Below, one piece after another: positions 1,969 through 15,547 of a DNA stretch of 64,000 nucleotides. Source of the DNA: Mycobacterium sp. 3519A (GTDB taxonomy: Bacteria > Actinomycetota > Actinomycetes > Mycobacteriales > Mycobacteriaceae). Under the pieces are notes generated by a model that saw nothing but the letters and a program-made list of their open reading frames with translations, did not search any database and was not told where the DNA came from. Each line of letters starts with the position of its first letter. Positions within the stretch are counted from its first letter, which is position 1. The position numbers and the translations under genes are program-made. The stretch lies in assembly GCF_900240945.1 (NCBI RefSeq), contig NZ_OESG01000014.1:306923-370922 (forward strand). The letters are read 5' to 3'.

Positions 1969-2042
1969 GCCGATGTAGTTCAATGGCAGAACATCAGCTT
2001 CCCAAGCTGAATACGCGGGTTCGATTCCCGTCATCGGCTCCA
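1969..2042 (+). tRNA. tRNA-Gly (anticodon CCC)
   Basis: A full cloverleaf can be drawn. Acceptor strand GCCGATG (1969-1975) pairs with CATCGGC (2032-2038). The anticodon arm is TCAGC-TTCCCAA-GCTGA with anticodon CCC at 2001-2003. The T arm is CGGGT-TCGATTC-CCG. The CCA end is encoded at 2040-2042. It decodes GGG. Its 3' half is the integration site of the island that follows, and the integrated element restores the complete tRNA. Confidence 0.93.
1997..2042 (+). repeat. attachment site inside tRNA-Gly (left end of island)
   Basis: A 46-bp segment from the 3' side of the anticodon stem to the CCA end is repeated in direct orientation at 15116-15161. Only one base differs (C at 2028, A at 15147). 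This is the pattern left by a tyrosine integrase that recombines within the 3' half of a tRNA gene. Confidence 0.92.
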
Positions 2043-2089
2043 CCTCTACCAGGGCTTTCATGCGATTGCTCTCGATACGAGCGGCTCGC

Positions 2090-2109
2090 GGTCCCGTAAC
2101 GGTCCCGTA
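2090..2109 (+). promoter_or_regulatory. probable integrase arm-type sites, left
   Basis: GGTCCCGTAACGGTCCCGTA, two tandem copies of GGTCCCGTA 48 bp inside the left attachment repeat. The identical 20-mer lies at 14954-14973 near the right end in the same orientation. Short direct repeats flanking the core on both sides are what lambda-type integrases bind with their N-terminal domain. Confidence 0.6.
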
Positions 2110-2110
2110 C

Positions 2111-2341
2111 TCAGTCGGGGAAATCGCCGGGACGTTCTGTAAATAGCAACGACCCGTCCTCGCGCGTGGTCGCAATCGTGATGCCGTCGAACTTCGCGTG
2201 AAGCGCGTCCGCTACGTGCTCCGACGCCACGATGCAAAATTCCTCGGCAGCATCGCTCTCTGGGATGTCATTTGCCTTCGCATACGCAGCGAGATCGACG
2301 TCGTGGACCGTGACCGTGAACTTCACCTTGGCTGTACTCAT
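2111..2341 (-). CDS. small hypothetical protein at island left end
   Basis: About 76 residues from ATG 2341. Longer starts are open, but the segment from MSTAKVKF onward looks like the folded part. It is acidic, with no HTH, membrane segment or cysteine motif that I can see. It is divergent from the BglII-like gene with about 135 bp between the starts, the place where a restriction controller protein could sit, but it does not resemble known C proteins. The strong arm-type repeat follows immediately after its stop. No function can be assigned. Confidence 0.5.
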   Translation of the reverse strand: MSTAKVKFTVTVHDVDLAAYAKANDIPESDAAEEFCIVASEHVADALHAKFDGITIATTREDGSLLFTERPGDFPD

Positions 2342-2476
2342 GGCGGGAAAGTGTGCCATCGGGTGCTGACGACGGTTGAGAGCCCCGGGCGACTCGCCAC
2401 GCCTCCTGGACATCCGACCCTCCAAGCCCTAGCGTGCAGCACGCTGCAACGCTGGAGGGATGGGGACAAACGGGCC

Positions 2477-3160
2477 GTGCAATACGAAGTCAGTGATTTC
2501 GCAGGTGCTAAAGAGTTCTTCGAGGGACCGGGGGAACATGAGTGGCAAGAGATCGCGTCGGTGCTGGATGGGACTACACCGCAGTTTCAGCCCAGTGACC
2601 AAGCCGGTCTGAATCATCGTCCAATCTTCGATCCAAAGGCGACGAATAGGGAATTGACCGACAGAGCTGCGGCCTTAGGTTGGAAGAAAATCCCTGTGCC
2701 GGACGGGCTTAAAGAGTTCGGCTTAGATTGGGACGCAGGGAAACGGACGACGCTTGCTGAGTGGCAGTTCTCAAACTACCCGTTTCTTTGGAACAATGTC
2801 ATCCGCACTCAAGGCGTCTACATCTCGGATATCGAATTGGCTGGCATGGACGGGGTGGAGGCGCTAATTGTCGTTACCAAGTGCGGCCTATTCCCCGCGT
2901 CGAATAGCACGCTCTACTATGAGCAAGCTAGAGCTCAACTTCAAGCTGCGATGAGCTTCAACTCGTTTACCGTTCCGATTCGCCTTGTTGGCCTTGCCAT
3001 TCCGCATTCATCGACTGAAGTCGAGGCCATGTGGAACGCCTACGCGAACACCCGCTACGACCGGACTCCCGCCAGCCGCGAACTCCGCAGATTCGACATT
3101 GCATGGAGTCGGCGGCCCGCTAAGCACGGCAACTACACCGCCTCGTTCTCACTCAAATAG
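2477..3160 (+). CDS. BglII-family type II restriction endonuclease
   Basis: 227 residues from GTG 2477, against 223 for BglII. From memory of BglII the match is extensive: FDPKATN, GKRTTLAEWQFSNYPFLWNN, FPASNSTLYYEQA and VPIRLVGLA all have close counterparts. The active-site residues D84, E93 and Q95 of BglII correspond to D86, E95 and Q97 here, a constant offset of two. BglII cuts A^GATCT; the specificity here is probably the same or related but is not proven. A GGAGGG lies upstream of the GTG. The open frame extends further 5' to 2198, but that part has no family counterpart. The gene converges with the methyltransferase and overlaps its 3' end by 12 bp. Base composition is visibly lower in GC than the chromosome around it. 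Confidence 0.9.
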   Translation: MQYEVSDFAGAKEFFEGPGEHEWQEIASVLDGTTPQFQPSDQAGLNHRPIFDPKATNRELTDRAAALGWKKIPVPDGLKEFGLDWDAGKRTTLAEWQFSNYPFLWNNVIRTQGVYISDIELAGMDGVEALIVVTKCGLFPASNSTLYYEQARAQLQAAMSFNSFTVPIRLVGLAIPHSSTEVEAMWNAYANTRYDRTPASRELRRFDIAWSRRPAKHGNYTASFSLK

Positions 3161-4183
3161 TGTTGGCGCAGGCGCTGAGATTTCACTCGCTGGCGCCTCA
3201 ATTCCAAGTAAGCGATCGGCGAAGGCGGTCTCTTCAAGTTCCAGCCGATGCTCCAGGTCGGCCAGATGGTGCGCTTCGTCAAATATCTTCGCCTTGGTCC
3301 TGTCTGTGGCCGACGCACCTACCTGTACGGCAAACCGGTACCCCGATGCGGGAGTGCCCGTTTCAGATGCGTAGCGGCGCAAGGTCTTTAGGTTGGGGAA
3401 GATACCATCGGCATCAGGTTTGATGTTTATGCGCTGCAGGGCAAGCTCGTAGTAGCGCTCGTCAACTTCCGTGCCGACGTAATGTCGCTCGAGATCCTTT
3501 GCAGCTACTGCCACAGTGCCGGTACCCATATAGGGATCGAGCACAACATCCGACTGGTCGGTCGTCGCCAGGATGATCCGACTGATCATCGCCTCCGGGA
3601 ACTGAGCCGGGTGAATCGTCTGCTCTTCATGGTTGTGTTTGACATTCTGGAACGACCAGATGTCGCCTGGGTTCTTCCCGAGCGGATTGCACGTGAGCTC
3701 GCCCTTGTTGTCGCCACGCCATGACTTCTTGTTTTGATACTTCTGCGGAACTCGTATCGGATCGAGGTTGAACTTGTAGTTGTCCGACTTGCTGAACCAC
3801 AGGATCGTCTCGTGCCGCGCGGAAAACTTGTTCTTGGCATGCAAACCGTGCTGGCGTACCCATACGATGCGGTTACGCGACTGTAGGCCGAGATCCTCAA
3901 GAATTGGGAAGAACTTCACGTCAAGGGGTATCAGCTGACCCTTGATCGAGTACGAGCCGACCTGCCAGAAAATGGAGCCTGTCGGCTTGAGAACGCGCGC
4001 GCAGTGCGTCAATACATCCGCCTGCTCGGAAAGATACAGGTCCAGGGCGCGCCTGGTCTCGTACTCCTTCCCGATGTTGTACGGCGGTGACGAGACAACT
4101 AAGTCGACCGATTCATCAGGCACATCCTTGAGCCAAGTTAGGCAGTCACCCAGCTCGATGCGGTCCAACGTCAAGTCGCTCAC
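3149..4183 (-). CDS. DNA methyltransferase of the BglII-type system (SPPY, probable N4-cytosine)
   Basis: 344 residues from GTG 4183, which has GGAGGAG six bases upstream; the longer frame to 4270 lacks such a site. The catalytic motif SPPY (residues 32-35) precedes the SAM-binding motif DPYMGTGT (216-223), so this is a beta-class amino-methyltransferase. SPPY rather than DPPY or NPPY usually marks N4-cytosine enzymes, as for M.BglII. It should protect host and island DNA from the neighbouring endonuclease. Tail-to-tail arrangement with the nuclease, with separate promoters, allows the two to be controlled independently. Confidence 0.88.
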   Translation of the reverse strand: MSDLTLDRIELGDCLTWLKDVPDESVDLVVSSPPYNIGKEYETRRALDLYLSEQADVLTHCARVLKPTGSIFWQVGSYSIKGQLIPLDVKFFPILEDLGLQSRNRIVWVRQHGLHAKNKFSARHETILWFSKSDNYKFNLDPIRVPQKYQNKKSWRGDNKGELTCNPLGKNPGDIWSFQNVKHNHEEQTIHPAQFPEAMISRIILATTDQSDVVLDPYMGTGTVAVAAKDLERHYVGTEVDERYYELALQRINIKPDADGIFPNLKTLRRYASETGTPASGYRFAVQVGASATDRTKAKIFDEAHHLADLEHRLELEETAFADRLLGIEAPASEISAPAPTLFE

Positions 4184-4280
4184 CTGGTTCTCCTCCGTCT
4201 TACGCCGCCGGTAAACGAACTCTACTTTGAGCGACCGACACCTCAGCGGCGCTGCGACAGGCGTGTCCAAGCCGCCCGTT

Positions 4281-5714
4281 TCAGCCGTGTAGCGGAATCA
4301 CATTGCTGTAGCTGGGCTCCTGGGCCGGGGCGGCGAGTGCGCCGAGCGCGGCCATGTTGCCGGTGTGGTCGTCGGTGTTGATGAGATGTGCGTACACGGT
4401 CAGCGTCGTCTTGACGTCCCGGTGCCCCATCAACTCCGCGATGTCGATCGGCCGGATGCCCGCCGCAAGGCACAGGCTCGCGTACGTGTGCCGCAGCGAG
4501 TGGAACGACTGTTCGGGGTCAATCTTCGCGGTCGGCGTGAGCCGGTTCGCGCGCAGCACCGCCGGTCGGTAGACCGCCTTGTAGAACGTCGCGTGGCGCA
4601 GCGGCGTCGCCCAATCGAGGACCAATCGCTTCTTGGCCTCGGCCACGGTGAGATCAGCCAAGGCGTCGGCCTGCCGTCGTGCACGGGCCTTCGCGGTGGC
4701 TTTCGGCGGCATGTCTTCTGCACCCGTAGTCGCCTCTCTCGGTGCGGGGGCCGTCGCGGGTACGCCGGTAGGCCGGGGACGCGTCAACGTCGTGCCGGGG
4801 AACAGCGGGGCGTCGGGCTCGTCGCCTCGCGGATGTGCCGCGAGGTAGTCCCGCAGCAACTCGGTCGTCTCGGCGGTGAGCGGCACGCGGCGGTAGCTCT
4901 GCTTGGTCTTCAGCGGGCCGTACTCGATGGCCGCACCCTTCGCCCGCGCGGCCTGCTCGACTCGCAGCACGCCAGGCTTAGCCGGGGCGTTTGGGTTCAA
5001 CGGCGGGTCTGGCAGTTCGACGTTGGCGATGGTTAGCCCGCCGAGTTCCGCCGCCCGCAGACCCGCCCAAGCGGCAACGTGCCCCAGGACGTCGTAGGGC
5101 CAGGGCGTCGCTGCGACGAGAGCCGAAACTTGTGCGGGCGTGAGGAATTGCGCCCGATCAACGACTACACCGACTTGACCCCCGTTAGTGCCTGTCTCTG
5201 TGGGGAGCTTGATGTACTCGGCGGGGCTCTTCGGCAGCCGGCCATCCACCACGGCCTGCTCCAGAACCATGCGAACGGTCCAGAACGCGTGGCGCACGGT
5301 GCTCGGCTTCTTGCCCGCCTCGGTGAGCCGGTTGACCCACGCCTGGATGTACTCGCGGGTGATCCTGTTGAGCGGGTAGCCGCCGAACACCGCATCGATG
5401 CCGAGCGTCTTGCCGTCGCCGCGTCGGGCTGCGGCCGGGGCGAGCGCGTAGCGGTGGTTCTCGGCGTTGTTGCGGGTGTCGGCCTTGCGGGACTCCAACC
5501 AGATCGCCGCCGCGTCGCGGAAGAGCATTTTGCCCTTGCCGGGATCGAAGTCCATGCCCGTCAACGTCTCGGTGTCGGCCTTGGCCGCGAACGCCTTGGC
5601 GTCCTTGCGGGTACGGAACCCGCCCTTGCTCCGCTCGGTGCCGTCTGCGGCGTACCACCGGACGACGTACGTTGTTGTGCCGCTGGCGCGTACGCGCTTC
5701 TGAATCCCTGCCAT
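4281..5714 (-). CDS. int: tyrosine integrase
   Basis: 477 residues. An N-terminal arm-binding-like domain (about 1-60, with RWYAADGTERSKGGF), a core-binding SAM-like domain (65-170) and a C-terminal catalytic domain. Catalytic residues: R220 in AWAGLRAAEL, H405 and R408 in HSLRHTYAS, H431 in MGHRDVKTTL, and nucleophile Y441 in TVYAHL. An Ala/Thr/Lys-rich insertion of about 45 residues (about 325-370) is unusual in the middle of the catalytic domain. It is the obvious enzyme for recombination at the tRNA-Gly repeat. Unusually for such islands it is not the gene closest to attL; the restriction-modification pair lies between. Confidence 0.95.
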   Translation of the reverse strand: MAGIQKRVRASGTTTYVVRWYAADGTERSKGGFRTRKDAKAFAAKADTETLTGMDFDPGKGKMLFRDAAAIWLESRKADTRNNAENHRYALAPAAARRGDGKTLGIDAVFGGYPLNRITREYIQAWVNRLTEAGKKPSTVRHAFWTVRMVLEQAVVDGRLPKSPAEYIKLPTETGTNGGQVGVVVDRAQFLTPAQVSALVAATPWPYDVLGHVAAWAGLRAAELGGLTIANVELPDPPLNPNAPAKPGVLRVEQAARAKGAAIEYGPLKTKQSYRRVPLTAETTELLRDYLAAHPRGDEPDAPLFPGTTLTRPRPTGVPATAPAPREATTGAEDMPPKATAKARARRQADALADLTVAEAKKRLVLDWATPLRHATFYKAVYRPAVLRANRLTPTAKIDPEQSFHSLRHTYASLCLAAGIRPIDIAELMGHRDVKTTLTVYAHLINTDDHTGNMAALGALAAPAQEPSYSNVIPLHG

Positions 5715-5792
5715 TGGTCCTCGCTCCTTGCTAACTACTGATGGAAAATTCGTGCACGCTACGCGGGGAGGGCAGCCCCGCCATCGACACCC

Positions 5793-6002
5793 CTACCCCT
5801 GTCCCCGACCGGGGGTGCCTTCAGCGCCGAGCAGTTCCTCGGCGTAGTAGATGGCTGTGGCGCCGTCCGCGAACCGCACGCGGTGCTCCATGTCGCCGCC
5901 GACGTTGCGCGTGCTGTCGACCATGCCGCGCTTGCCGGTGTGCGGGTCGCGCGGTAACAACACGACCACGCGACTGCGTGGCGGGTAGTACGTAGCCTTC
6001 AT
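5793..6002 (-). CDS. small protein translationally coupled to serine recombinase
   Basis: 69 residues, beginning MKATYYPPRSRVVVLLPRD. The start codon overlaps the recombinase stop as ATGA (5999-6002), so the two are surely cotranslated. Basic N-terminus, acidic C-terminus with a beta-rich look; no recognisable domain. Position suggests an accessory protein of the recombinase, such as a directionality or silencing factor, but this is only inferred from coupling. Confidence 0.6.
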   Translation of the reverse strand: MKATYYPPRSRVVVLLPRDPHTGKRGMVDSTRNVGGDMEHRVRFADGATAIYYAEELLGAEGTPGRGQG

Positions 6003-6661
6003 GAAACCGCCTCCAATTCGGTTGTAGCCGTGGCACTCTGATAGATGCGTCGCACGGTGGACGGCTGCCAGGTTGGCCGACCAGCAGGCGACAGGATCGC
6101 CTCGGCTTCCAAGGCGCGGGCGATGCGGCCGAAGCTCAGGCCCGCGTTGCGGTCGAGCACGATGCGCCGCACGACGCCAGCGGTCGCGAGTCGTGGTCGT
6201 CCGATGCGCTCACCGCGTGCCTTCTTGGCGGCCAGGCCTGCCTTCGTGCGCTCGCTGATGAGTTCACGCTCGTACTCGGCGAAGTTGACGACCGTCCGCG
6301 CCATCATGCGACCCGCAGCGGTCGACAGGTCCAAGTTGATATCGAGCACGACGAGCGACCAACCTTGCGCTTGCGCTGCGTCAATGATGTTGGCAGCATG
6401 GACTATTGATCGTGCTAGTCGGTCGAGCTTCGCCACGATCAGCCCGTCGCCCTGGCCCGAGGCGAGCAGCTGCAACGCCTCCTGCAGGTTGGCGTTGATG
6501 TACTTGCCGCTCGCGCCCTCATCTGCGAGGTGCTCCACCGTCCAGCCCCGCCGTGCGGCCTCGGCGTCGATGGCCGACCGCTGCGCTTCGAGGCCGTTGC
6601 GGCTGTCCGCCTGCTCGTCGGTGCTCACACGCGAGTAGCCGAAGTACAGCTTCGATTCCAT
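5999..6661 (-). CDS. small serine recombinase (resolvase/invertase family)
   Basis: 220 residues. Catalytic domain with YSRVSTDEQ (nucleophile S13), GLIVAKLDRLARS and the long E helix ending near residue 140 (VVNFAEYERELISERTKAGLAAKKARG), then a C-terminal HTH (GRPRLATAGVVRRIV ... TWQPSTVRRI). The length suits resolvases and invertases, not large serine integrases, so it more likely resolves multimers or inverts a segment than integrates the island. No resolution-site dyad was firmly recognised in the 95 bp upstream. Confidence 0.9.
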   Translation of the reverse strand: MESKLYFGYSRVSTDEQADSRNGLEAQRSAIDAEAARRGWTVEHLADEGASGKYINANLQEALQLLASGQGDGLIVAKLDRLARSIVHAANIIDAAQAQGWSLVVLDINLDLSTAAGRMMARTVVNFAEYERELISERTKAGLAAKKARGERIGRPRLATAGVVRRIVLDRNAGLSFGRIARALEAEAILSPAGRPTWQPSTVRRIYQSATATTELEAVS

Positions 6662-6757
6662 GTCGTCTCCCTCGGGTTGGGGCGTAACCGTTCGGTTCCG
6701 CCTTACGCCTCGATTCTACGCCAACAGCAAACTCATTAATTGCTCTGGCCTCGTTCT

Positions 6758-7381
6758 TTACCGGCCGTAGCCACGCTCGCGGCGTGCGGTGTCCGCAGCC
6801 TCTTCCAGGGTCATCAGCCCGGTATCGCGCGGCATATCGTCGCCGCCGTCGTTCCCCTCGCCGGGGTCGCGCATCTCGTCCTCAGGACTCTCGGGCGGCG
6901 CGGCGGGGCCGCTCTCCTCGGCGGGCTCGACTACCTCGACATCGAGCGGGGCAGCCAGGGCGGGCGTGCTGATGAATGGGCGCCCTTGCTGGGCACGGTG
7001 CTCGGCGCGGGATATGGTGGCGACGCCGGTGATGTCGTCCATGAGCTGCTCCCACGGCTTAACCTCCACGGAGACTTCGGTTTTGGCACCAAGGCCCGCG
7101 CGGTCGAGTGCGTCGCGAATCGCGTTGAGCTTCACCGCTTCTGATTCAGCACCGGTCGCCATGCCGAGCAGTTCGCGGGCCATCCGGTCGGCGGCAAGCT
7201 CCAGCCGTTGCTTGGCTTTGCGCTGGACCTGCGGGGCTGCGCCACCGTGTGTTCGGCAGACGGTCATGCCGCGGTTGGCTGGCTTGAGGCACCGCTCACC
7301 GTTCTTCCGTACTGCTACGCAACGATTTTGATCGTTGCGATCGAGCCACCAATCGTCCGAGTACACGTCTTCACTAGGCAT
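6758..7381 (-). CDS. HGG zinc-finger phage-type protein, possibly small-terminase-like
   Basis: 207 residues. An N-terminal zinc-binding module (CVAVRKNGERC ... CRTHGG, about residues 21-47) is followed by a helical region (VQRKAKQRLELAADRMARELL ... VKLNAIRDALDRAGLGAKT) and an acidic, Pro/Glu-rich tail. This layout, a CxxC-like finger ending in HGG followed by a helix reading ALDRAG, occurs in many actinophage proteins near terminase genes; some are called small terminase or terminase-associated. GGAGG lies 6-7 bases upstream of the ATG. If it is a TerS, it would direct a helper packaging motor to the island DNA. The assignment is by resemblance and uncertain. Confidence 0.6.
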   Translation of the reverse strand: MPSEDVYSDDWWLDRNDQNRCVAVRKNGERCLKPANRGMTVCRTHGGAAPQVQRKAKQRLELAADRMARELLGMATGAESEAVKLNAIRDALDRAGLGAKTEVSVEVKPWEQLMDDITGVATISRAEHRAQQGRPFISTPALAAPLDVEVVEPAEESGPAAPPESPEDEMRDPGEGNDGGDDMPRDTGLMTLEEAADTARRERGYGR

Positions 7382-7589
7382 GCCTTGGCCTCCAATCTCG
7401 TTGGTTTACATGGTGTTTCAATGTTGTTGTTATGCAGCCGTTTTGCGCTTTCGATGGTTTTCGAGGCAGTTCCGGGTGTGTGAGGCTGCTGAATCGGGCC
7501 GTTTCGATCCTCCATAGGTCGTGATCTCCTGCGGTCTGCTCTTGGTCTCCACACAAGGCCAGGGCGGGTGTCCGGTGACCTAGGGAACC

Positions 7590-7801
7590 GAACCCGTTCC
7601 CTATAGGCGGTCCGGGAGGGAACGAGTTCCCCTCCCGGCCGCGTCCCGCCTCGGCGACGCAACCCGTTCCGGCCTCGGGAACGAGTTCGGAAATAGCCCT
7701 CTAACAGGTACTTTCGCCCGTTCACGATTCAACCCGTTCCGAACCCGTTCCGGCCTCGGGAACGACTTCCGAACCCGTTCCCGCGCCGCCGAATCCGTTC
7801 C
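7590..7801. repeat. iteron cluster, candidate replication origin of the island
   Basis: Nine copies of an 11-mer close to GAACCCGTTCC or its reverse complement in 212 bp: about 7590, 7618, 7661, 7677, 7731, 7741, 7759, 7771 and 7791. Several starts are spaced by multiples of 10 bp. A larger block, AACCCGTTCCGGCCTCGGGA plus a following GAACGA half-site, occurs twice (7661 and 7742). The copy at 7618 sits in a long dyad, CCGGGAGGGAAC opposite GTTCCCCTCCCGG. The cluster covers the 3' end of the replicase gene and the gap after it; the remainder of the gene-free stretch 7382-7721 shows nothing else I can name. Iterons beside a replication initiator are a common origin design. Confidence 0.75.
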
Positions 7802-10013
7802 GCGCCGATCCCAGACCCACGCGGTCGCGCTTCACCATCCGCGAGCCTTCGTTGCGCTCGCAGTTCTTGACCACAAGCCTCCCGTTGACCTTCAGTTGCT
7901 TCAGGACTTCCCGCGTCTTTTCGCGGTTGCCGCCCACCTTTTCGGCCACACCGGTCTCGGTCAGATCGAAGTTGTTGTCTCGAACGACCTGCAGAATCTG
8001 ATCCACGGCCTTATCGGTCCGACTCTGGCCCGTGGCGGTCTGGCCGCCGAACTGCCTCGCCTCCCATTCGACGGACGACCACACGATCGCGTCGGGGTCG
8101 CTGTCGTCGCGGTTAAGTGTCCAATCGACCTCAAGGCGCCTCCCACCGCCTCGGCGGCTGCCGGTCTCGACCTCAAGAAGAAACTTGCCGTTCTCCAGAT
8201 CAGGTGCGCTCCGGTGCTTCTGGAGGATCCATGAGTCGGCCCACTGCGCCATCCCCGCCTGGGCGATGTTGTCCAGGTCCAGACGACCGCTCGCCGTCTT
8301 GTTGAAGTGGTCGCCCACGATCAACGCGGCCTCGCCGCCGACCAACATCCGCAAGTTTGCGAGCATCGGCCCCCGCGCGTAGATATTGCTGACTTCCACG
8401 TCGTTCGGGTGGTAGGCGTAGAGCGGATCGAGAACCACGAGCTTCGGTTGCAACTCGTCAAGGTGTCTCGTCACGGCCTGGATGAACTCGCCCTCGGTCA
8501 GCGTGCCGACGCCGAACTCAGCGCCGAGCGGTATATCCAGCAACGCGTCCGAGGTGATCCCATATCGCGCCGCAATCACCTGGTGTCGGTTTGCGAAGGT
8601 GTCCTGACCGCCCTCACCACAGAGGTAGAGGACTGGCCCCGGCGACGTGGCGGGGTACTCATCGAACAATGCCGAGCCGGTCGCGACCGCCAGCGCGATC
8701 GCTTGAAGGTTCCACGTCTTCAACGCCTTCTTGTCGCCACCAAGCACACCCGCCGACCGCTCAGGCCAGATACCCCGGACCAACCAGCGCATCGGCTTAA
8801 TCGGCTGGCCAAGCTCCCGCGCGGAGACGAGTCGGAACCGATTGGCTGCTGTCGGGGTTGCGTCGATCCCTTGCACACCCGCAAGCCAGTCCTCGATGCC
8901 CGCCACGGCTCGCGTCTTGGCATCTTCATAGGCAAGCCGCTTCGCATAACGCGCCTCCAACTCGGGCAGGTTCTCGGCGTTCGCCGCATACACCGCAGCG
9001 CTTACCGACCGTGCGAAGTCAGCCGGGTCGAGGGTGTCGCCGCGCTCGGCGTAACTGTGCCGCGCCGCCTTCTCGATTTGCTTCGCGGCCTCGGCCCAGG
9101 AGCACCAGCCGACCAGCGCATCACGGGCAGCCTCTTGCAGGGCTTTGAACGCGGCGTTGCGGGTACTTCCCTCCGCGTTCCGCACCGAGGGCACGATGTA
9201 CTCGGTCAGGTGCCAGGTCTGCTCGCTGCGGGTGTGCTCGGCGGCAAACCGCCCCACTTGCTCGTCGGTCGCCTCACCCGCACTGGCTTTGGTGGGGTCG
9301 ACACGCAACCCGTCGAGCCACGCTTCGGGAAGCTCAGGCCACTCCGCGAGGGGCGGTATCACCCCGCCCAGTACCTCGTTGCCGCTGCGCTCGTCGTAGA
9401 CCTTGTATCGTTCGCCGTTCCGGTGGTAGCTCGGCGGTACCACCATGAGCCGAAGGTGTCGTTGGATCAGGTCAATGTGACCGTCGCCGCCGTCACCGGA
9501 CTTCAGAGCCGCCTTGCCTTCCCAACCATTGGGCACGCGGAAAAGGCGAATTCCGCTGCCGCAGTCGAATCCACGCGCGGTCACACGCCACGTCGGCGGG
9601 AGAACGCCAAGGCGGTCCTCGTGTTCGGCGAGCGTCGACAGGCCACGTTTGCCGTCGTAGCCATCGACGTCGAGCCCGACGCCACCGACCGGCATCCGCA
9701 CACCGATCTGGAGGCTGCCAACGGCGCCATCGCGGATGCAGCCCTCGACCCTGGCCGGCCAAGCATCAACATGCTCAGGCGTCGCATCGACACCGTCACG
9801 CCCGAACAGGCCCCGGAACCAGGGAACCTTTCGGCCGTCCTTGCCTTCGGTCGCGACGCGACCAAGGGGGAGGGGGTGGTGGCCGTTCCTCATCAAAACA
9901 TCAGCGGCAGCGCGGAACTCGTCAGCACCCAGGCCAGTACCATCGCTGGCTATCGCTGCACTACCGTTGCGGGATAACCGCTTTCGGGTTCGGGGTTCGT
10001 TCGCTAGACTCAT
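7722..10013 (-). CDS. primase-polymerase / AAA helicase replication protein
   Basis: 763 residues. The N-terminal part is a bifunctional primase-polymerase (about 30-230) with the metal-binding GLDVDGYD (D115, D117, D120) and a later VVPPSYHRNG motif. The C-terminal part is a RepA-type ATPase with Walker A GGDKKALKT (425-433) and Walker B KLVVLDP (D529), followed by a possible winged-helix region near 690. Such fusions prime and unwind plasmid, phage and satellite origins. The last 30 residues are encoded by the iteron cluster, giving the repetitive ending GTGSERVES. The protein is consistent with autonomous replication of the excised island. Confidence 0.9.
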   Translation of the reverse strand: MSLANEPRTRKRLSRNGSAAIASDGTGLGADEFRAAADVLMRNGHHPLPLGRVATEGKDGRKVPWFRGLFGRDGVDATPEHVDAWPARVEGCIRDGAVGSLQIGVRMPVGGVGLDVDGYDGKRGLSTLAEHEDRLGVLPPTWRVTARGFDCGSGIRLFRVPNGWEGKAALKSGDGGDGHIDLIQRHLRLMVVPPSYHRNGERYKVYDERSGNEVLGGVIPPLAEWPELPEAWLDGLRVDPTKASAGEATDEQVGRFAAEHTRSEQTWHLTEYIVPSVRNAEGSTRNAAFKALQEAARDALVGWCSWAEAAKQIEKAARHSYAERGDTLDPADFARSVSAAVYAANAENLPELEARYAKRLAYEDAKTRAVAGIEDWLAGVQGIDATPTAANRFRLVSARELGQPIKPMRWLVRGIWPERSAGVLGGDKKALKTWNLQAIALAVATGSALFDEYPATSPGPVLYLCGEGGQDTFANRHQVIAARYGITSDALLDIPLGAEFGVGTLTEGEFIQAVTRHLDELQPKLVVLDPLYAYHPNDVEVSNIYARGPMLANLRMLVGGEAALIVGDHFNKTASGRLDLDNIAQAGMAQWADSWILQKHRSAPDLENGKFLLEVETGSRRGGGRRLEVDWTLNRDDSDPDAIVWSSVEWEARQFGGQTATGQSRTDKAVDQILQVVRDNNFDLTETGVAEKVGGNREKTREVLKQLKVNGRLVVKNCERNEGSRMVKRDRVGLGSARNGFGGAGTGSEVVPEAGTGSERVES

Positions 10014-10056
10014 CGTCGCGTCCTACGGGTCGCGGGTCGTTCACGTTCCTCGGCAT
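9961..10056 (-). CDS. possible 31-residue leader ORF overlapping the replicase start
   Basis: ATG 10056 is preceded by GAGGAAAGGGACGTGC. The frame runs 31 codons and ends 50 bp inside the replicase gene in another frame. It begins MPRNVNDPRPVGRDDE. A short upstream frame overlapping a replication gene could couple or limit its translation. There is no homology evidence, and it may be chance. Confidence 0.25.
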   Translation of the reverse strand: MPRNVNDPRPVGRDDESSERTPNPKAVIPQR

Positions 10057-10084
10057 GCACGTCCCTTTCCTCGGGTGGGTTGTT

Positions 10085-10123
10085 CTGTTGCCCGGTTGGC
10101 TTACACGGCTGACCGGGCAACAG
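10085..10123 (-). promoter_or_regulatory. perfect 12-bp inverted repeat between HTH gene and replicase
   Basis: CTGTTGCCCGGT (10085-10096) and ACCGGGCAACAG (10112-10123) with a 15-base loop. It lies 12 bp downstream of the HTH gene and upstream of the replicase. No U-tract follows on the minus strand, so it may be an operator, an attenuator or a processed hairpin that adjusts replicase expression. Confidence 0.55.
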
Positions 10124-10135
10124 GCTCTCCAGCCC

Positions 10136-10372
10136 TCATCGGGGCGCACCCTCAGCGAGTCGGTACGTGCTCGCCTGACGACGCGACTCCACCCAGCGCC
10201 GTAAGTCATTGACGCTGAAGTAGTTCCCGTTTCCGAATCGAGTCGGCTCCAGCTCCCGCCGTAGAACGGCGTACTTGATCGTGCGGCGGGTGATCGGGTA
10301 CCCCCACTCGCGCAACTTCTGAAATGCCGCCTCCTGGTTGAGGTTTGCGACATCATCAGGGTTCGGGTCCAC
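10136..10372 (-). CDS. excisionase-like small HTH protein
   Basis: 78 residues from GTG 10372, with AAGGAG seven bases upstream. A winged-helix excisionase/MerR-like fold is suggested by AAFQKLREWGYPITRRTIKYAV and NGNYFSVNDLRRWVESRR, the layout of HTH_17 proteins: a helix-turn-helix, then a wing, then a helix ending DLRRWVE. Candidate directionality factor for the integrase or regulator of the replicase that follows. It is far (5.6 kb) from int but in the same orientation. Confidence 0.7.
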   Translation of the reverse strand: MDPNPDDVANLNQEAAFQKLREWGYPITRRTIKYAVLRRELEPTRFGNGNYFSVNDLRRWVESRRQASTYRLAEGAPR

Positions 10373-10619
10373 GTTGATGCTCCTTCAAACACAAAACACC
10401 TGGCCTACGCTGAAGGTTCTCCTTCAACGCACGCCAGGTGTCATGGGTGTTCAGCGCAATCCCGCCGGCCAACGGCTCCAAGCTCCCGCCGGTCGTTTCT
10501 GTTGATTCAATTATCGCCCCGCCCCTCGGAGGCGAGTTACCGAGAGCCTACCCGAACCGCCGCCGGATCGCCGACGTAAGCGCGGCCCGAAAGTGGTTAC
10601 GCTGCAGCCATTTTGTGAC

Positions 10620-10925
10620 TCACTCAGGCCAGCAGTTGGCCCAATGCCGTTCGCGCCACTCCATGTGCCTTCTGTCGTTGTCATTGCCGCGGTCTTGCTC
10701 GCCGCAGCCAAGGCAGCGGTACATGTGGCCGCCCTTCACGACCGGCACGTCGGTAAGCCGGATGATCTTGCGTCGCCGTAGCTCCTCGCACGGCGTGACG
10801 TCGATCAGCGCGTGCAGCGTCGCCCGCAGCACGGCAGCGAGTTCGTCGCGGTGCTCGCTGCCAGCTTCTTGCACAAGGCTGTCCACCCTCGCCTTGGCGC
10901 AGTCCTTCCATGTGGTCGGTCCCAC
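10620..10925 (-). CDS. small zinc-binding hypothetical protein
   Basis: 101 residues from GTG 10925, preceded by AGGAGAG. The C-terminal 35 residues carry CLGCG, then two His and a final Cys (HMEWRERHWANC), a likely zinc site; the N-terminal part is helical. No family recognised. It lies in the leftward gene set of the island. Confidence 0.55.
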   Translation of the reverse strand: MGPTTWKDCAKARVDSLVQEAGSEHRDELAAVLRATLHALIDVTPCEELRRRKIIRLTDVPVVKGGHMYRCLGCGEQDRGNDNDRRHMEWRERHWANCWPE

Positions 10926-11237
10926 GGGTCTCTCCTCATATTGGGGTTGAAGTAGCAGACCCTTTGCGAGAGCGACAAAAAGAGCGCAAACACCGGAGGG
11001 CCACCCCTTTGGTGAAGGACTCTTCTGGGGCTAACCTTCGACGCTTGCGCTCGGTGATCGTGACTTGAGCTGACCTTGAACCGAACGGCTGTCGGCCACC
11101 GTTGGTGACGACGATGGTATCCAAGGACCCGCACCCCGTCCAGCCCCGTAGGCCGATGCCGCGTTCGTCGCATCCGATCCCTCGCCGAACGGCCCGCATC
11201 GCGTCTCCGTCCCGATGAGCGGCCCGGACGGCGGTCG
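10926..11237. other. 312-bp stretch without a confident gene
   Basis: A minus-strand frame covers it (10936-11307), but it overlaps the 3' end of the gene upstream, is very Arg/Ser-rich and has no ribosome binding site. I see no convincing RNA gene or repeat here. Confidence 0.4.
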
Positions 11238-11915
11238 CTAAGGGACCGGTCGAACCGGGGACCGAGGGTCGATCCGCGCGCCGGGTGGTAGGTGGCCTTG
11301 AGCCCACACCAAAGCCTCACGGAGCCGAGTCCGCTCCAACTCTCGCGCCGCTAGATCGCACGATTCGCAGCAGCGGAACACGAACACGAACGGGTCGCGA
11401 CTCGCGACCATCATGTTGGTGAGCCCGCCGACTCGACCGACACCGCATTCGTCGGCCAGAACGATCTGGCAGTCGCCTCGGCTGTGGAAGTCATACACCT
11501 GCGCATACAACTGGAGCAGACCAGCGTGATAGTCGACGCCGCGCTCAGCCTTTCCCGGCAGTCGTCGCTTACTGACCATAACCGTGTTGCTACCGACGAA
11601 GTGGATCAGCGCTGCAGAAGCGTTCAGGTCGTCGGGGTCGTATGAGGCACCATCGGCGGCATGATCGTCGTAAGTGATCTGATCAGCGGCCATGGCCAGA
11701 CGGAGGTTGCGATGCGCCTTGGCGACGACCTTGTATATCGGCGGGCATCGGTCGGGATCATCCCAGACCACCATCCGCCGCGCCCACCCCTGCCGGCTCA
11801 CGATCTCTTGGGCGTCAAGTATCGCCGTGACCGTGGGGTGATCAGGCTGCGGGGGCTGTTCGATGGCCGGGAACTTCGCCATGATCCTCGCGCGCTCAAT
11901 CTCGTTGATATTCAT
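11238..11915 (-). CDS. hypothetical island protein, cotranslated with HTH gene
   Basis: 225 residues beginning MNINEIERARIMAKFPAIEQ. The start overlaps the upstream HTH gene by ATGA (11912-11915), so the two form an operon. It has mixed alpha/beta composition, a stretch QIVLADECGVGRVGG near 160, and a cysteine group FRCCESC near 185 that might bind metal. No family recognised. Such HTH-plus-partner pairs in satellites often concern regulation or derepression, but nothing in the sequence fixes a role. Confidence 0.65.
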   Translation of the reverse strand: MNINEIERARIMAKFPAIEQPPQPDHPTVTAILDAQEIVSRQGWARRMVVWDDPDRCPPIYKVVAKAHRNLRLAMAADQITYDDHAADGASYDPDDLNASAALIHFVGSNTVMVSKRRLPGKAERGVDYHAGLLQLYAQVYDFHSRGDCQIVLADECGVGRVGGLTNMMVASRDPFVFVFRCCESCDLAARELERTRLREALVWAQGHLPPGARIDPRSPVRPVP

Positions 11916-12202
11916 GCTGTTCGATTTCCTTTCCGGTTGTAGCGCGCCGCCCCGGCGGTGCGGCTAGGCCGCGTGACGATGAAGCGCCACAGTTCCTCGG
12001 TCGTGTACATGCGCCGTCCTGCAACGATCCGGCAAGCCAGTTCGCGCCGGTCGGTTACCGTCTTGATCCATCGCTCGGTGACCGGGACGCCGATGCCCGC
12101 GTACCAAGCGACGGCATCAGCGGCCGTCTTGTCTGGGACGGGGGACACGTCCAAGTGCGCTGGCGGGTCGGGCACTGGTACCGGAATATCCACTCTTGCC
12201 AT
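11912..12202 (-). CDS. HTH DNA-binding protein (excisionase/regulator type)
   Basis: 96 residues. After a Pro-rich N-terminus comes a helix-turn-helix-wing module: DAVAWYAGIGVPVTERWIKTV, then RRMYTTEELWRFIV. It is the first gene of the leftward set and abuts the divergent regulatory region shared with the capsid-like gene, so it is the best candidate for the regulator of that switch region. It is similar in layout, not in sequence, to the protein at 10136-10372. Confidence 0.7.
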   Translation of the reverse strand: MARVDIPVPVPDPPAHLDVSPVPDKTAADAVAWYAGIGVPVTERWIKTVTDRRELACRIVAGRRMYTTEELWRFIVTRPSRTAGAARYNRKGNRTA

Positions 12203-12375
12203 AGTTTTCGCCTCTCCTCGGTATTTCCGAGTTTAGGCGGCGGAACCGTACCTCCGCCGACTTAAGACGGCCGCATCAGGTGCCAATACCGTTGCGCTGT
12301 ATCGTTATTCGAGCGCACTCGCTCGTCGCGGCGCTACCCTCGGTCGAAACGGATACCCGACGAACGGAATACGAG
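12203..12375. promoter_or_regulatory. divergent promoter region with two dyads
   Basis: The 173 bp between the leftward HTH gene and the rightward capsid-like gene. Contains CTCGG-TATTT-CCGAG (12217-12231) and CGGCGGA-N8-TCCGCCG (12238-12259), two neighbouring dyads just upstream of the HTH gene. This is the natural place for operators that decide between leftward and rightward transcription. Confidence 0.5.
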
Positions 12376-13527
12376 ATGTCAAATACTCTGGAACGACTGC
12401 ACATCTGGGGCGGTGAGGGTCGACGCAAGGGCGTCAGCGTGGCGGGCGATGTGCTCGTCAACGAAACCGCCGACGGCGTCAACCTCAACGACATCTGGAA
12501 CGAGATACAAGCGGCGCTGGGCGTCTACAACGAACACCGCTCTACGATCGTGCGGTTGCTCTCGTATCCGACAACGGCCGTCGCTGACGTCATCCCCCAG
12601 AGCGTCGAGGGTGAATCCTTCGAGGTGGCAACGGAAATGGGCATTCCGACCGCTCTGCGCGAGCCTGCTGACTATCTGCGCCTCGGTTACAACTTTCAGG
12701 ATTACGACAAGCGTCTGTCGGCTTCGTGGAAATTTTTGAGGTCAGCAACGGCCGAACAGGTCGAGGCTCAGGTCACGCGCATCTTCGAGGCCGACAACCG
12801 TCTCGTCACGGGCACGATCCTGCGCCGACTGCTCGACCCCGCGCCTCGGTTCAACGAATGGCAGCACACCTGCTACGGGCTCTGGTCGGGCGACTCGATG
12901 GTCCCGCCCGCACACCTCGGAAAGTCTTTCGACGGCAACCATACTCACTACCTGACGTCCGGTTCGACGCACATCGACTCGCAGGACGTCGAGGACATGA
13001 TCCGCCACGTCACCGAACACGGCTACGGTCGTTTCGGTAACCAAGGCGGGCAGCTCATCATCCTCGCCCACCCGAACGAGATCGAGGATATGACGTTGTG
13101 GCGGGCGGGCGTCGAGTACGCCGCCGGCAAGGTGCCCAAGTTCGACTTCGTGCCGTCACAAGCCGCCCCGGCCTACTTCACCACGGAGCACCTCGTCGGC
13201 GCGGTCGCACCGAGCGAGTTCGAGGGGCTCCAGGTGCTCGGCAGCTACGGCGACGCCTGGCTCATCGAGTCGCACTACGTGCCAATGGGGTACGTAATCG
13301 TGGCCGCGACGGGCGGGCTCGACTCTGACCGCAACCCGGTCGGCTTCCGCGAGCACGTCAATCCGGCGTATCAGGGGCTGCGCCATATTCCGGGTCGTGG
13401 TCCGTACCCGCTGACGGACAGCTTCTATGCGCGCGGGTTCGGGGTTGGCGTTCGACACCGAGGCGCAGCTGTCGTCATCCAGGTGACGGAAAGCGCCGTC
13501 TACACCGCGCCGACCATCCAGACATAA
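12376..13527 (+). CDS. phage major capsid-like protein (HK97 fold expected)
   Basis: 383 residues from ATG 12376. The frame is open further 5', but MSNTLERLHIWG is the plausible start. Several blocks match a large actinophage major-capsid family known to me: SWKFLRSA, FEADNRLV, SFDGNHTHYLTSG, HVTEHGYG, NPVGFREHVNPAYQGLR and YPLTDSFYARGFGVGVRHRG near the C-terminus. Phage relatives form the head shell. No protease, scaffold or portal lies nearby; only one small gene follows 11 bp later. It is the sole rightward structural gene in the island. An encapsulin function was considered, but no cargo enzyme is adjacent and the blocks fit phage proteins better. Confidence 0.78.
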   Translation: MSNTLERLHIWGGEGRRKGVSVAGDVLVNETADGVNLNDIWNEIQAALGVYNEHRSTIVRLLSYPTTAVADVIPQSVEGESFEVATEMGIPTALREPADYLRLGYNFQDYDKRLSASWKFLRSATAEQVEAQVTRIFEADNRLVTGTILRRLLDPAPRFNEWQHTCYGLWSGDSMVPPAHLGKSFDGNHTHYLTSGSTHIDSQDVEDMIRHVTEHGYGRFGNQGGQLIILAHPNEIEDMTLWRAGVEYAAGKVPKFDFVPSQAAPAYFTTEHLVGAVAPSEFEGLQVLGSYGDAWLIESHYVPMGYVIVAATGGLDSDRNPVGFREHVNPAYQGLRHIPGRGPYPLTDSFYARGFGVGVRHRGAAVVIQVTESAVYTAPTIQT

Positions 13528-13538
13528 GGCCACCAACC

Positions 13539-13787
13539 ATGTTTGAGCGCTACAGCCTCTCTCGCGACCCTGAGAAGGACTACCGCGACAAGTCTGAGTT
13601 CGGCATGGAACCGGGGCTCGTGCTGCCCGGCAAGGAGACCGCGCCGATACCCGATGGCGGGGTGTATCGGGGGAAATGCCCGCCGGTCGAACTCACCCCC
13701 AGCGCGGACCTCAGCGTGCAGGTCCGAGAAACCCGATGGAGTCGCGGCGACCCGCCGCGCGGCTATGCGGGCGAGCGGGTCGGGTAA
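13539..13787 (+). CDS. small protein downstream of capsid-like gene
   Basis: 82 residues, MFERYSLSRDPEKDYRDKSE at the start, 11 bp after the capsid-like gene and clearly in its operon. Pro/Gly-rich with several charged residues; no recognised domain. Possible roles by position are head decoration, capsid-size control or scaffold, all unproven. The 128 bp between its stop and the next gene hold nothing I can name. Confidence 0.55.
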   Translation: MFERYSLSRDPEKDYRDKSEFGMEPGLVLPGKETAPIPDGGVYRGKCPPVELTPSADLSVQVRETRWSRGDPPRGYAGERVG

Positions 13788-13915
13788 CCCTCGCCGTGCC
13801 GTCGCAACATGCCTACGCCCCGTGCAGGTCGCAGCAACCGCACCCCTAGACGGCCCGGTCACGGGGCGGAGTTACTGCCTTTCGACGCCCAGTGGCCGGC
13901 TGCCTCTGCGGCGCG

Positions 13916-14893
13916 CTAGTTGACTCGCAACAGAATCGGTGTCCACGGGTGTTCGCCGACCTCCGCGACGCCTTGACTGTCGACGGTGATACCGCGGAAC
14001 GACCGGTGACCGAGAGCCCAACGCCGTTGCCGAATCTCGGCCAACGACCGCCGCCGCCAACGAGCACCGTTCCATCCCGGTGGCGCTTCGCCGCCAGGCT
14101 GTCGGAACCAATCCGGCGTCAGGAACACTTCCTCGCCGTACATGGTCAACTCGGCTACGTGCGCGTCGTATTCGACGCGCTCTGGTGCCATCTTCTCGTC
14201 AACCTTTTCCCAGAACCATTTGTAAAACTCGCGTACCGCTGCTGTGTACCGGCCGACAATCGGCTGTAGGTCAAACGACTTGCCCTGCTGCTCAAGGTAA
14301 GTACGTACCTCTGCGTTCAGGGCGTCCCACTTCAATAACGGCTCAACACGCAGCCGAAACTGGAACTCCGCCATGGGTACCGTCTGGGAGAACTGCCATG
14401 CCGGGTTCAGATAAGGAAGAAACTTGTGCTGGGAATAGTTGCGCAGTTCTACGAGCAGCTTCGCTTCGTCTGCTTCGAACACGGCGAGGCGCTTTTTGGT
14501 GTACTCGCCGCGCTCGAACTCGGACAGCTGTTTGCCAATGCTCGGCCAGATGTCGCGTAGGACTGCTCGCTGACCCGAGATGAGCGACTTCACCGAGCCG
14601 AGAAAGTTCGCGAGGAGTCGGGCCAGCTCGATGCCGAAGGGGTCGCCCACGTCGGGGTTGAACGGCTGGCTTTGGCCGATCTCGGGATATCGCCAAATGT
14701 GAGCCTGCAATTCCTCCGCGTTCCTGCTGAAGGCGTACGACGTCAGGTTCAAATCCTTCATCATCGCGATGACCTCGAACGCCCGCATCTCCATCAACAT
14801 CGCCTGGCGCCGCTTGTACTCGGCAATCCACGGGTTGGTGTAGATCGTCTCGGACGTTCCTTCGCCGACGTCCTCAGCAGGGGCCTCGCTCAT
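13916..14893 (-). CDS. HEPN-like hypothetical protein, candidate defence gene
   Basis: About 325 residues from ATG 14893 (GTG 14923 is also open). Largely alpha-helical. The segment VELRNYSQHKFLP holds R151-N-x3-H156, the Rx4H motif of HEPN nucleases, in the expected helix context. The C-terminal part after about residue 260 is rich in Trp and Arg. It lies alone at the attR end of the island in a divergent setting, a slot where satellites and prophages often hold anti-phage or toxin genes. HEPN membership rests on the motif and its surroundings only; an alternative is an unrelated helical protein. Confidence 0.5.
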   Translation of the reverse strand: MSEAPAEDVGEGTSETIYTNPWIAEYKRRQAMLMEMRAFEVIAMMKDLNLTSYAFSRNAEELQAHIWRYPEIGQSQPFNPDVGDPFGIELARLLANFLGSVKSLISGQRAVLRDIWPSIGKQLSEFERGEYTKKRLAVFEADEAKLLVELRNYSQHKFLPYLNPAWQFSQTVPMAEFQFRLRVEPLLKWDALNAEVRTYLEQQGKSFDLQPIVGRYTAAVREFYKWFWEKVDEKMAPERVEYDAHVAELTMYGEEVFLTPDWFRQPGGEAPPGWNGARWRRRSLAEIRQRRWALGHRSFRGITVDSQGVAEVGEHPWTPILLRVN

Positions 14894-14953
14894 AGAGCCA
14901 ATTCTGCGGCCGCGCTCCGACACATCTTGGCGTGTCGGCGGGCGTGTCCAAAT

Positions 14954-14973
14954 GGTCCCGTAACGGTCCCGTA
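14954..14973 (+). promoter_or_regulatory. probable integrase arm-type sites, right
   Basis: GGTCCCGTAACGGTCCCGTA, the exact copy of 2090-2109, 142 bp inside the right attachment repeat. Several looser CCGTACC elements follow at about 14994-15032. Confidence 0.6.
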
Positions 14974-15115
14974 GACGCAGCCGAACCGAGGGCGTACCTA
15001 GGCCGTACCGGCGCGCGCCGCGACCCGTACCGAAACCACTTCTAGCAGCGCAAACGGTGCTAGTCGTCAGCGCTCCGACCAGCGGCTATCGCTCACCTGT
15101 TCGGACGTAGAAAAG

Positions 15116-15161
15116 GCTTCCCAAGCTGAATACGCGGGTTCGATTCACGTCATCGGCTCCA
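15116..15161 (+). repeat. attachment site copy, right end of island
   Basis: Direct copy of tRNA-Gly positions 1997-2042 with a single change in the T arm (A at 15147). It has no 5' half of a tRNA and so is not a gene. The chromosomal S4 gene starts six bases later. Confidence 0.92.
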
Positions 15162-15166
15162 TCACA

Positions 15167-15547
15167 ATGGAAGCCATGGAAGCGACCCGCGTCGACAAGT
15201 GGTTGTGGGCGGTCCGGCTGACCAAGACCCGCCCCGACGCCGCTGCGGCATGCCGGGGCGGGCACGTCCGGGTCAACGACCGACCCGCCAAGCCCGCCAC
15301 CACCGTGTCGCCCGGCGACACCGTGCACGCCCGCATCGGCGACCGCACCCGCATCGTCGAAGTGACCCGCGTGATCCACAAGCGGGTCGGCGCCGCCGAC
15401 GCCGTCACCTGCTACCTCGACCGCTCGCCCGCACCACCCTCGACGCCGTATGTGCCTGTCGCCGTTCGTGATCGCGGCGCCGGGCGGCCGACCAAACGCG
15501 ACCGCAGGCTCCTCGACAAGTGGCGCGCCAGCTACGGGCGGCCGTAG
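15167..15547 (+). CDS. S4-domain RNA-binding protein (Hsp15/RqcP-like)
   Basis: 126 residues. The S4 fold is clear in VDKWLWAVRLTKTRPDAAAACRGGHVRVN (first 40 residues), followed by PGDTV and a basic C-terminal tail (RPTKRDRRLLDKWRA). Proteins of this type bind ribosomal or tRNA-containing 50S particles, as in E. coli Hsp15. ATG 15176 is an alternative start. In the empty chromosome this gene would lie a few bases after tRNA-Gly, so the island has cut it off from the tRNA promoter. Confidence 0.85.
   Translation: MEAMEATRVDKWLWAVRLTKTRPDAAAACRGGHVRVNDRPAKPATTVSPGDTVHARIGDRTRIVEVTRVIHKRVGAADAVTCYLDRSPAPPSTPYVPVAVRDRGAGRPTKRDRRLLDKWRASYGRP

Follow-up and report, generated by a model that had tools for sequence, protein, structure and literature searches.

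What kind of element carries a single major capsid gene of phage type, alongside integration and replication genes, with no recognised portal, large terminase (TerL) or tail gene? The question is raised by an island in the chromosome of Mycobacterium sp. 3519A, contained in the 64 kb stretch of contig NZ_OESG01000014.1 analysed here ('the window'; positions 306,923 to 370,922). A preliminary description, made from the letters of the stretch, had named it a candidate phage satellite. On the evidence of its genes and a fold model, the island is probably a satellite with its own capsid protein, gp1-like partner and predicted small terminase (TerS), for which an infecting Patience-like phage would provide portal, TerL and tail.

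The island is bounded by two direct repeats enclosing 13.1 kb, which the preliminary description had recognised as a 46 bp attachment (att) repeat in tRNA-Gly. Such att repeats at a tRNA gene, characteristic of islands inserted by tyrosine integrases, were likewise found in 28 further contexts of related capsid genes. The features on which the argument depends are:

1969..2042, + strand: tRNA-Gly(ccc), the integration target (ARAGORN)
1997..2042, + strand: first att copy, the 3' 46 nt of tRNA-Gly(ccc) (direct repeat)
4281..5714, - strand: tyrosine integrase (PF00589, 1.4e-12; PHROG 1, 3e-57; relatives in 29/29 delimited islands)
6758..7381, - strand: HGG zinc-finger protein, a predicted shortened TerS homologue (relatives in 27/29 islands)
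7722..10013, - strand: primase-helicase with prim-pol and AAA_25 domains (PF13481, 5.8e-22; PF09250, 5.2e-11; relatives in 26/29 islands)
12376..13527, + strand: major capsid protein, 383 aa, predicted HK97 fold of the Patience/Adjutor type (ATG at 12376, stop at 13527)
13539..13787, + strand: gp1-like small protein, 82 aa, 11 nt after the capsid gene (hidden Markov model and shared motif)
15116..15161, + strand: second att copy, 45/46 nt identical to the first, one mismatch

Packaging genes of the island

The capsid gene, on the strand opposite to the block running from the integrase to the helix-turn-helix (HTH) gene, matches PHROG 3990 'major head protein' with an E value of 9e-104, in agreement with the single major-capsid-like gene described beforehand. 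Structure prediction of 12376-13527 had been proposed as a check, a fold unlike HK97 counting against a satellite; the model has an HK97-type fold and, together with kinship to solved phage capsids, the nearest being those of phages Patience and Adjutor, it identifies the product as an HK97-fold capsid protein. Encapsulin identity was considered and rejected, both Foldseek and VIA ranking encapsulins far below the Patience and Adjutor capsids in the top rows listed.

Phylogenetic comparison indicates that the satellites form a capsid lineage of their own. With a careful method, a single branch with 100/100 support separates 41 mycobacterial from 15 phage proteins; with a quick method, one branch (SH-aLRT 100) separates 87 satellite from 33 phage proteins. 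The latter tree comprised 72 of 80 loci from a GTDB scan (those below 300 aa being dropped), 14 hand-picked earlier satellite rows, two IMG/VR isolate rows and 32 earlier phage rows, with the one GTDB phage contig counted on the phage side; 'satellite' here means the absence of a phage head or tail hit, which truncated contigs test incompletely, and some rows share genomes. A further tree held 60 mycobacterial, 32 phage and two IMG/VR isolate rows, and none of its 60 mycobacterial proteins belonged to the phage clade; these were drawn from 80 Mycobacterium matches, the other 20 being fragments, broken pieces (L190) or unfetched (G173:C22). The lineages also differ in small indels: among 56 stop-free satellite proteins of at least 340 aa and 32 phage sequences, a three-residue stretch after residue 157 occurs in 0/56 satellite and 97% of phage proteins, and an extra residue at position 80 in 56/56 and 22%, respectively. 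Ratios of nonsynonymous to synonymous polymorphism (pN/pS) of 0.13-0.26 for the capsid gene (15 pairs) and 0.21-0.27 for the TerS gene (three pairs) indicate that both are under purifying selection. Phage relatives of the capsid protein were found in 63 Mycobacterium phage records and one Nocardia phage record, and also in Gordonia and Microbacterium phages; there were none among 72,556 plasmid records. The search for homologous proteins scored the 8000 candidates with the most words in common.

The HGG zinc-finger protein had been noticed previously, although its homology to small terminases was missed. It is a predicted TerS by homology and by the TerS position of its relatives in phages, an identification new in this analysis. 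TerS PHROGs match 20 and 16 of the 27 HGG proteins from delimited islands at E ≤ 0.01 (best values 1.6e-10 and 1.5e-7), and phrog_3678, whose function is unassigned, matches 26 of them. A hidden Markov model (HMM) of the island proteins, searched against a six-sequence database of TerS-position proteins from Patience-like mycobacteriophages, matched all six with E values of 3e-8 to 7e-14; those of Patience, Oaker, DrLupo and Indlulamithi are annotated as TerS. The zinc finger is common to the island and phage proteins, and a C-terminal segment resembling KPYEE..DDI..GSR recurs in several. When the same HMM was applied to the open reading frames (ORFs) of 84 phage or viral loci, all ten phage matches (E ≤ 0.01) lay upstream of TerL. 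TerS HMM matches were present in 52/61 mycobacterial contexts and 62/80 GTDB loci; in ten of the latter the match is no more than 1 kb from the capsid gene. These are L221, L249, L251, L254, L260, L263 and L264, along with L245, L248 and L250, where the genes are on the other strand. The close capsid and TerS pair of several non-mycobacterial actinobacteria is a predicted minimal packaging kit of two genes.

The third gene of this group, not named in the preliminary description, is the ORF following the capsid gene, which an HMM of 29 island ORFs, built without the window, matches with an E value of 1.4e-21. Among 41 contexts, this HMM detects such downstream ORFs in 32, one of them the window, and among 61 contexts it detects ORFs in 42. 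The island proteins have a conserved core, SEF.WG.G..PP...GG.Y, and the motif SEFxWGxGxxP is common to the island ORF and gp1 of Patience-like phages, a SEF.WG.G-like motif being present in the gp1-type proteins of eight of these phages (examples of phage gp1 are found at L073 1-309 and L164 1-351). Profile comparison of island ORFs with phage gp1 gave a probability of 96% and an E value of 1.8e-9 over 42 columns, and this link is newly recognised here on the strength of the shared motif. Relatives of gp1 were found in 64 of 50,697 phage records (63 from Mycobacterium and one from Nocardia, at E values up to 1); these counts equal those of the capsid protein in both phage groups, as totals not matched record by record, and gp1 is possibly tied to this capsid type. 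An alternative identity for the ORF, gp4, was rejected, since Troll4 gp4 and Oaker gp3 scored at noise level. As for gp4 itself, the hexamer-bridging accessory protein of Patience and Adjutor, an HMM of four phage gp4-like proteins had no match at E ≤ 10 among the ORFs of the 61 contexts, in an insensitive search that recovered only two of its own training proteins among phage ORFs.

The island family and its candidate helper

A search of 248 Mycobacterium genomes gave 80 capsid matches in 67 of them. Forty-one contexts were compared (the window and L033-L072), many of which share the gene order integrase, serine recombinase, HGG protein, primase-helicase, HTH protein and capsid protein. A tRNA-anchored direct repeat defines both ends in 29 of these, the tRNA genes used being Gly(ccc), Gly(tcc), Leu(taa), Met(cat), Lys(ttt) and Arg. 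A search for the same gene set at other mycobacterial tRNA genes had been suggested, and the set does occur at several. The 12 contexts without such a repeat, some of them short contigs, were left out of the size count. A3 does not include L059. Twenty-seven of the 29 delimited islands are 11.8-13.6 kb in size, the median of all 29 being 12.87 kb, and this narrow band suggests a packaging limit. The outliers are L048 (5.3 kb) and L040 (15.2 kb, with a weak repeat), and L043 has a second candidate repeat 2.5 kb further out. Core genes are widely shared within the 29 islands: the integrase is present in 29, the HGG protein in 27, the primase-helicase in 26 and the serine recombinase in 22, while the capsid gene was found in 28 by clustering and in L062 by tblastn.

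None of these contexts resembles an intact prophage. Searches by tblastn with the head and tail proteins of six related phages found no TerL, portal, minor capsid, protease or tail match in the 41 contexts, the sole phage-query match being Troll4 gp2, a TerS-position protein, in L062; nor was there any TerL, portal, minor capsid or major tail match in 20 additional mycobacterial contexts, although part of the 61 ended early at contig ends. As a positive control, the queries were applied to IMG/VR contigs in which a related capsid gene has sufficient flanking sequence. Portal and minor capsid were each recovered in 35/35 of these, TerL in 33/35 and major tail protein in 47/48. Given this high recovery, the lack of genes for portal, TerL, minor capsid and tail is solid. 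The preliminary statement that no other head or tail gene is present holds for these; for the protease it is less secure, the protease/MuF queries recovering 27/35 controls. In one context, L041 (G037:C3), a likely TerL is situated about 20 kb from the island capsid gene, and the island may adjoin a prophage there.

Similar loci occur well beyond the mycobacteria. A scan of GTDB with a single peptide pattern, from which 80 of 82 relatives were kept, found nearly all to be actinobacterial: besides mycobacteria, the genera were Gordonia, Rhodococcus, Rhodococcoides, Williamsia, Dietzia, Micromonospora, Microbacterium, Nocardioides, Aeromicrobium, Demequina, Piscicoccus, Quadrisphaera, Pseudonocardia and Hoyosella. 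The loci were scored for TerL, portal, scaffold, minor capsid, major tail and tape-measure proteins, the protease not being in the tally; only one of the 80, a contig of an Acidobacteria metagenome-assembled genome, had TerL, portal, minor capsid or major tail matches, and of the other 79 loci, 52 are flanked by 9 kb or more in each direction. Related intact prophages had been named beforehand as the finding that would mark the island as a remnant; the relatives are not of that kind, such matches occurring in 0/61 mycobacterial contexts and 1/80 GTDB loci, and this, together with the fold, supports the satellite reading. L185 and L186, from different genomes, have capsid contexts that are alike by tblastn, with the same match positions and identities, which suggests recent transfer between species.

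Under this reading, infection by a helper would lead to excision of the island and its replication by the prim-pol protein. The island TerS would direct the helper's TerL to island DNA, and the island capsid protein would assemble on the helper's portal, probably with helper scaffold and protease, to give a shell with room for about 13 kb or some multiple of that length, and the particle would be finished by a tail from the helper. The island would then have retained the three phage-derived genes that specify the shell and select the DNA, portal, TerL and tail being loanable by any related phage. The helper probably belongs to the group of 65-72 kb phages with the same types of capsid protein, TerS and gp1, of which the two members with solved structures, Patience and Adjutor, have T=7 shells (PMC10635136, in the available portion of that paper). 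In the genome containing the window, the one capsid match is the island itself, TerL queries gave weak matches only and the Patience-like portal family had no match, this being a narrow family found in only 2/14 control genomes; as no resident Patience-like helper was seen, an incoming phage is probably the likelier source. A broader proposition, that satellites across the actinobacteria own a capsid lineage used by no sampled phage and form chimeric particles on the portal, TerL and tail of virulent Patience-like phages, having privatised the shell alone, is about evenly balanced between being right and wrong.

Several results weigh against this interpretation. The gp1 likeness is restricted to one motif of at most 42 aligned columns, the gp1-like ORF has a pN/pS of 0.49 in a single pair, and gp1 was undetected in the Gordonia and Microbacterium phages of the same capsid type. 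Of the 52 GTDB loci flanked by 9 kb or more in each direction, eight had no detected TerS and 21 no detected gp1-like ORF. With the window capsid protein as query, an order-wide sample yielded matches in 9/298 genomes and 2/76 genera, implying a family that is thin or divergent outside the mycobacteria. An unrecognised island ORF could be a scaffold, given that scaffold queries recover 8/35 control phages. No contiguous junction representing an uninterrupted empty site was present among the matches listed from 61 genomes for the window island and from 61 genomes for that of L039. Finally, an internal stop interrupts seven of the 80 Mycobacterium capsid matches and roughly one match in four is a fragment, indicating that some copies are decaying.

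This last observation, along with the missing head and tail genes, would also suit a decayed prophage remnant. That explanation is rejected as very unlikely: size and core genes are alike in 27 of the 29 delimited islands, the capsid proteins form a satellite-only clade, the genes appear to be under purifying selection, and 79 of the 80 GTDB loci likewise have no portal, TerL or tail matches. Integrases and prim-pol proteins also occur in conjugative elements, and the island might be an integrative mobilizable element, transferred by conjugation, in which a phage capsid gene persists by accident; such an origin is barely credible, the TerS and capsid genes having been retained together across actinobacteria, and no relaxase or FtsK-type family appearing among the families listed for 136 non-core ORFs.

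More serious consideration is due to interference or defence, in which the capsid protein would be built into the helper's own shell and either poison it or reduce its size, no satellite shell being made. A capsid gene on its own, the restriction-modification cargo of the island and the defence-like cargo of its relatives are all as such a function would have it. This is nevertheless unlikely, as the islands have also kept a TerS homologue and replication genes, needless for interference, and are confined to a narrow size band; with a TerS of their own, a shell specific to the satellite and having a packaging specificity of its own is more plausible than pure interference. Alternatively, the island capsid protein might replace that of the helper in a T=7 shell filled with about five 12.9 kb copies. 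Five times 12.87 kb is about 64 kb, near the genome size of phage Troll4 (64.6 kb), and the packaging of several copies is known in other satellites (PMC11389934, as far as its available text goes), but the proposal is arithmetical in its basis and would make a separate capsid lineage, with indels distinguishing 56 satellite from 32 phage sequences, needless; it is distinctly improbable.

Remaining genes, cargo and island ends

The other features of the island are:

2090..2109, + strand: paired GGTCCCGTA repeat immediately inward of the left att, a candidate arm-type site for the integrase (repeat search)
2198..3160, + strand: type II restriction enzyme, cargo, start codon uncertain (PADLOC REase_II, 1.3e-39)
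3149..4270, - strand: type II DNA methyltransferase, cargo (PF01555, 2e-60; PADLOC MTase_II, 2.8e-119)
5793..6002, - strand: small protein encoded between the integrase and serine recombinase genes, with some relatives retaining it (tblastn)
5999..6661, - strand: serine recombinase/resolvase (PF00239, 4.5e-38; relatives in 22/29 islands)
7661..7773: two 32 nt repeats (7661-7692 and 7742-7773), 94% identical, accompanied by partial copies and overlapping the helicase gene at its 3' end
10136..10372, - strand: short HTH-like protein, predicted function (relatives in many of the 40 other contexts)
10620..10925, - strand: small protein (82% identical relative in L033)
11238..11915, - strand: protein between helicase and capsid genes (9/29 islands, window included)
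11912..12202, - strand: short protein at the excisionase position, so labelled from its position (relatives in several contexts)
13916..14923, - strand: cargo protein, 335 aa, no recognised family (Pfam, PHROG and PADLOC blank)
14954..14973, + strand: the same paired GGTCCCGTA repeat inside the right att, candidate arm-type site (repeat search)

Both the integrase and the primase-helicase had been named previously, and both identifications hold, through PF00589 and PHROG 1 for the former and the prim-pol and AAA_25 domains for the latter, the phage relatives of which are limited to distant and partial matches. The repeats adjoining the primase-helicase gene are likewise real and may be an origin, although 'iterons' was a guess at their name. 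Similarly, the ORF at 11912-12202 exists, but its earlier label as an excisionase-like HTH protein derives from position, there being no match in Pfam or PHROG.

Variable genes occupy both ends of the island. On the left, 2198-4270 is a type II restriction-modification pair not named in the preliminary description; on the right is the 335 aa protein, which has no relative in the other delimited islands. Among the families listed for 136 non-core ORFs, there were two instances of GmrSD and one each of AbiTii, a BglII-type enzyme and HEPN, such that the delimited islands look like carriers of defence genes. These 136 were scanned from 140 chosen representatives, those left out being window:3152-4270, window:10438-10947, window:13503-13862 and L062:12872-15883, and the tallies cover the first 25 of 128 PHROG families and of 53 Pfam families.

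The repeat GGTCCCGTA, also not named beforehand, has four copies in the 64 kb, all within the two end pairs, relative to an expectation of 0.35, and these pairs resemble integrase arm sites. Beyond the right end, 15162-15547 and the adjoining flank are found far from tRNA-Gly in relatives, which suggests a rearranged site or one that several elements have used; with the right flank elsewhere or oppositely oriented in relatives, integration sites seem to have been rearranged. Just outside the island near tRNA-Gly, a 427 aa ORF at 8-1291, presumably an IS30-type transposase, is flanked by partly matching ends (7-28 and 1282-1303, 82%).

Relation to known satellites

Staphylococcus aureus pathogenicity islands (SaPIs) and phage-inducible chromosomal islands (PICIs) have an integrase and a primase-helicase, as does the present island. 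SaPIs are described, in the text available, as redirecting assembly of the helper's shell, whereas the island encodes a whole capsid protein; it shares with a SaPI-type element the integrase, the replication module and, by homology, its own TerS, the latter also being a property of SaPIs and PICIs (PMC10690885, available portion), and differs in having a capsid gene. P4-like satellites and PICI-like elements (PLEs) similarly have small genomes and a shell adapted to satellite size, but these remodel hijacked helper coat proteins, through Sid and Psu in the P4-like case (PMC11389934, in the available text), instead of carrying a capsid gene.

Capsid-forming PICIs (cf-PICIs) resemble the island family in encoding the shell, and their capsids fall in clades of their own within phage capsid trees (PMC11389934, same portion). 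However, according to the available description, they encode protease, portal, connectors, TerL, TerS and HNH (PMC10690885), whereas the island has the major capsid protein and no portal or TerL (0/41 contexts). No cf-PICI protease or connector was found in the 41 contexts either, with protease/MuF queries that recover 27/35 phage controls. As it lacks the full head and packaging complement of cf-PICIs, the island does not belong to that class. The satellites of Streptomyces phages, MulchRoom and MiniFlayer, are also actinobacterial, with capsid genes of their own and virulent helpers, but these carry TerL, portal, scaffold and adapter without obvious replicases, as described in the same available text (PMC10690885), the island being the reverse. 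The Patience-like phages themselves (Patience, Troll4, Oaker, Send513, DrLupo and Indlulamithi) have a homologous capsid protein, TerS and gp1 motif; unlike the island, these are full phages of 64.6-71.6 kb with portal, TerL and tail, and their capsid clade is separate. The portal, TerL, minor capsid and tail genes expected beside the capsid gene of such a phage or prophage are absent from the island.

The closest published counterpart is the set of candidate Mycobacterium PICIs reported by Abad et al. in 2023 (PMC10654092), defined, in the portion of that article available, as phage-like regions with integration machinery and a major capsid gene, four of which were mapped. The island has both of these attributes, and the present family very likely overlaps or lies within that set. 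Some of the candidates are, like the island, located at tRNA genes and carry helicases, and some have terminase and scaffold genes; the available sections single out no family with capsid and TerS only, no gp1 link and no Patience-like helper group. The earlier claim that the island fits neither class of satellite thus stands against the cf-PICI description as available, but overlooks this report. Integrase-plus-capsid islands in mycobacteria are already published, and the novelty here is the identification of the HGG protein as a predicted TerS and the link to gp1; at the level of titles and abstracts, with preprints and most subscription papers outside the scope, no satellite family with capsid and TerS only was found among the papers listed.

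The satellites known so far either alter the shell of the helper or encode a complete head module, and supplying only the shell, its partner and TerS would, if true, be an intermediate strategy, in which the satellite controls the DNA packaged and the shell around it while motor, portal and tail are left to the helper. It would also offer a natural system for studying how one HK97-fold protein sets shell size on a foreign portal, and the spread over many actinobacterial genera, with a named candidate helper group, makes the family directly testable. The defence-like genes carried by the islands may affect the phage susceptibility of mycobacteria, and the strategy, if correct, would help to explain why integrase-plus-capsid islands are so common in these bacteria.

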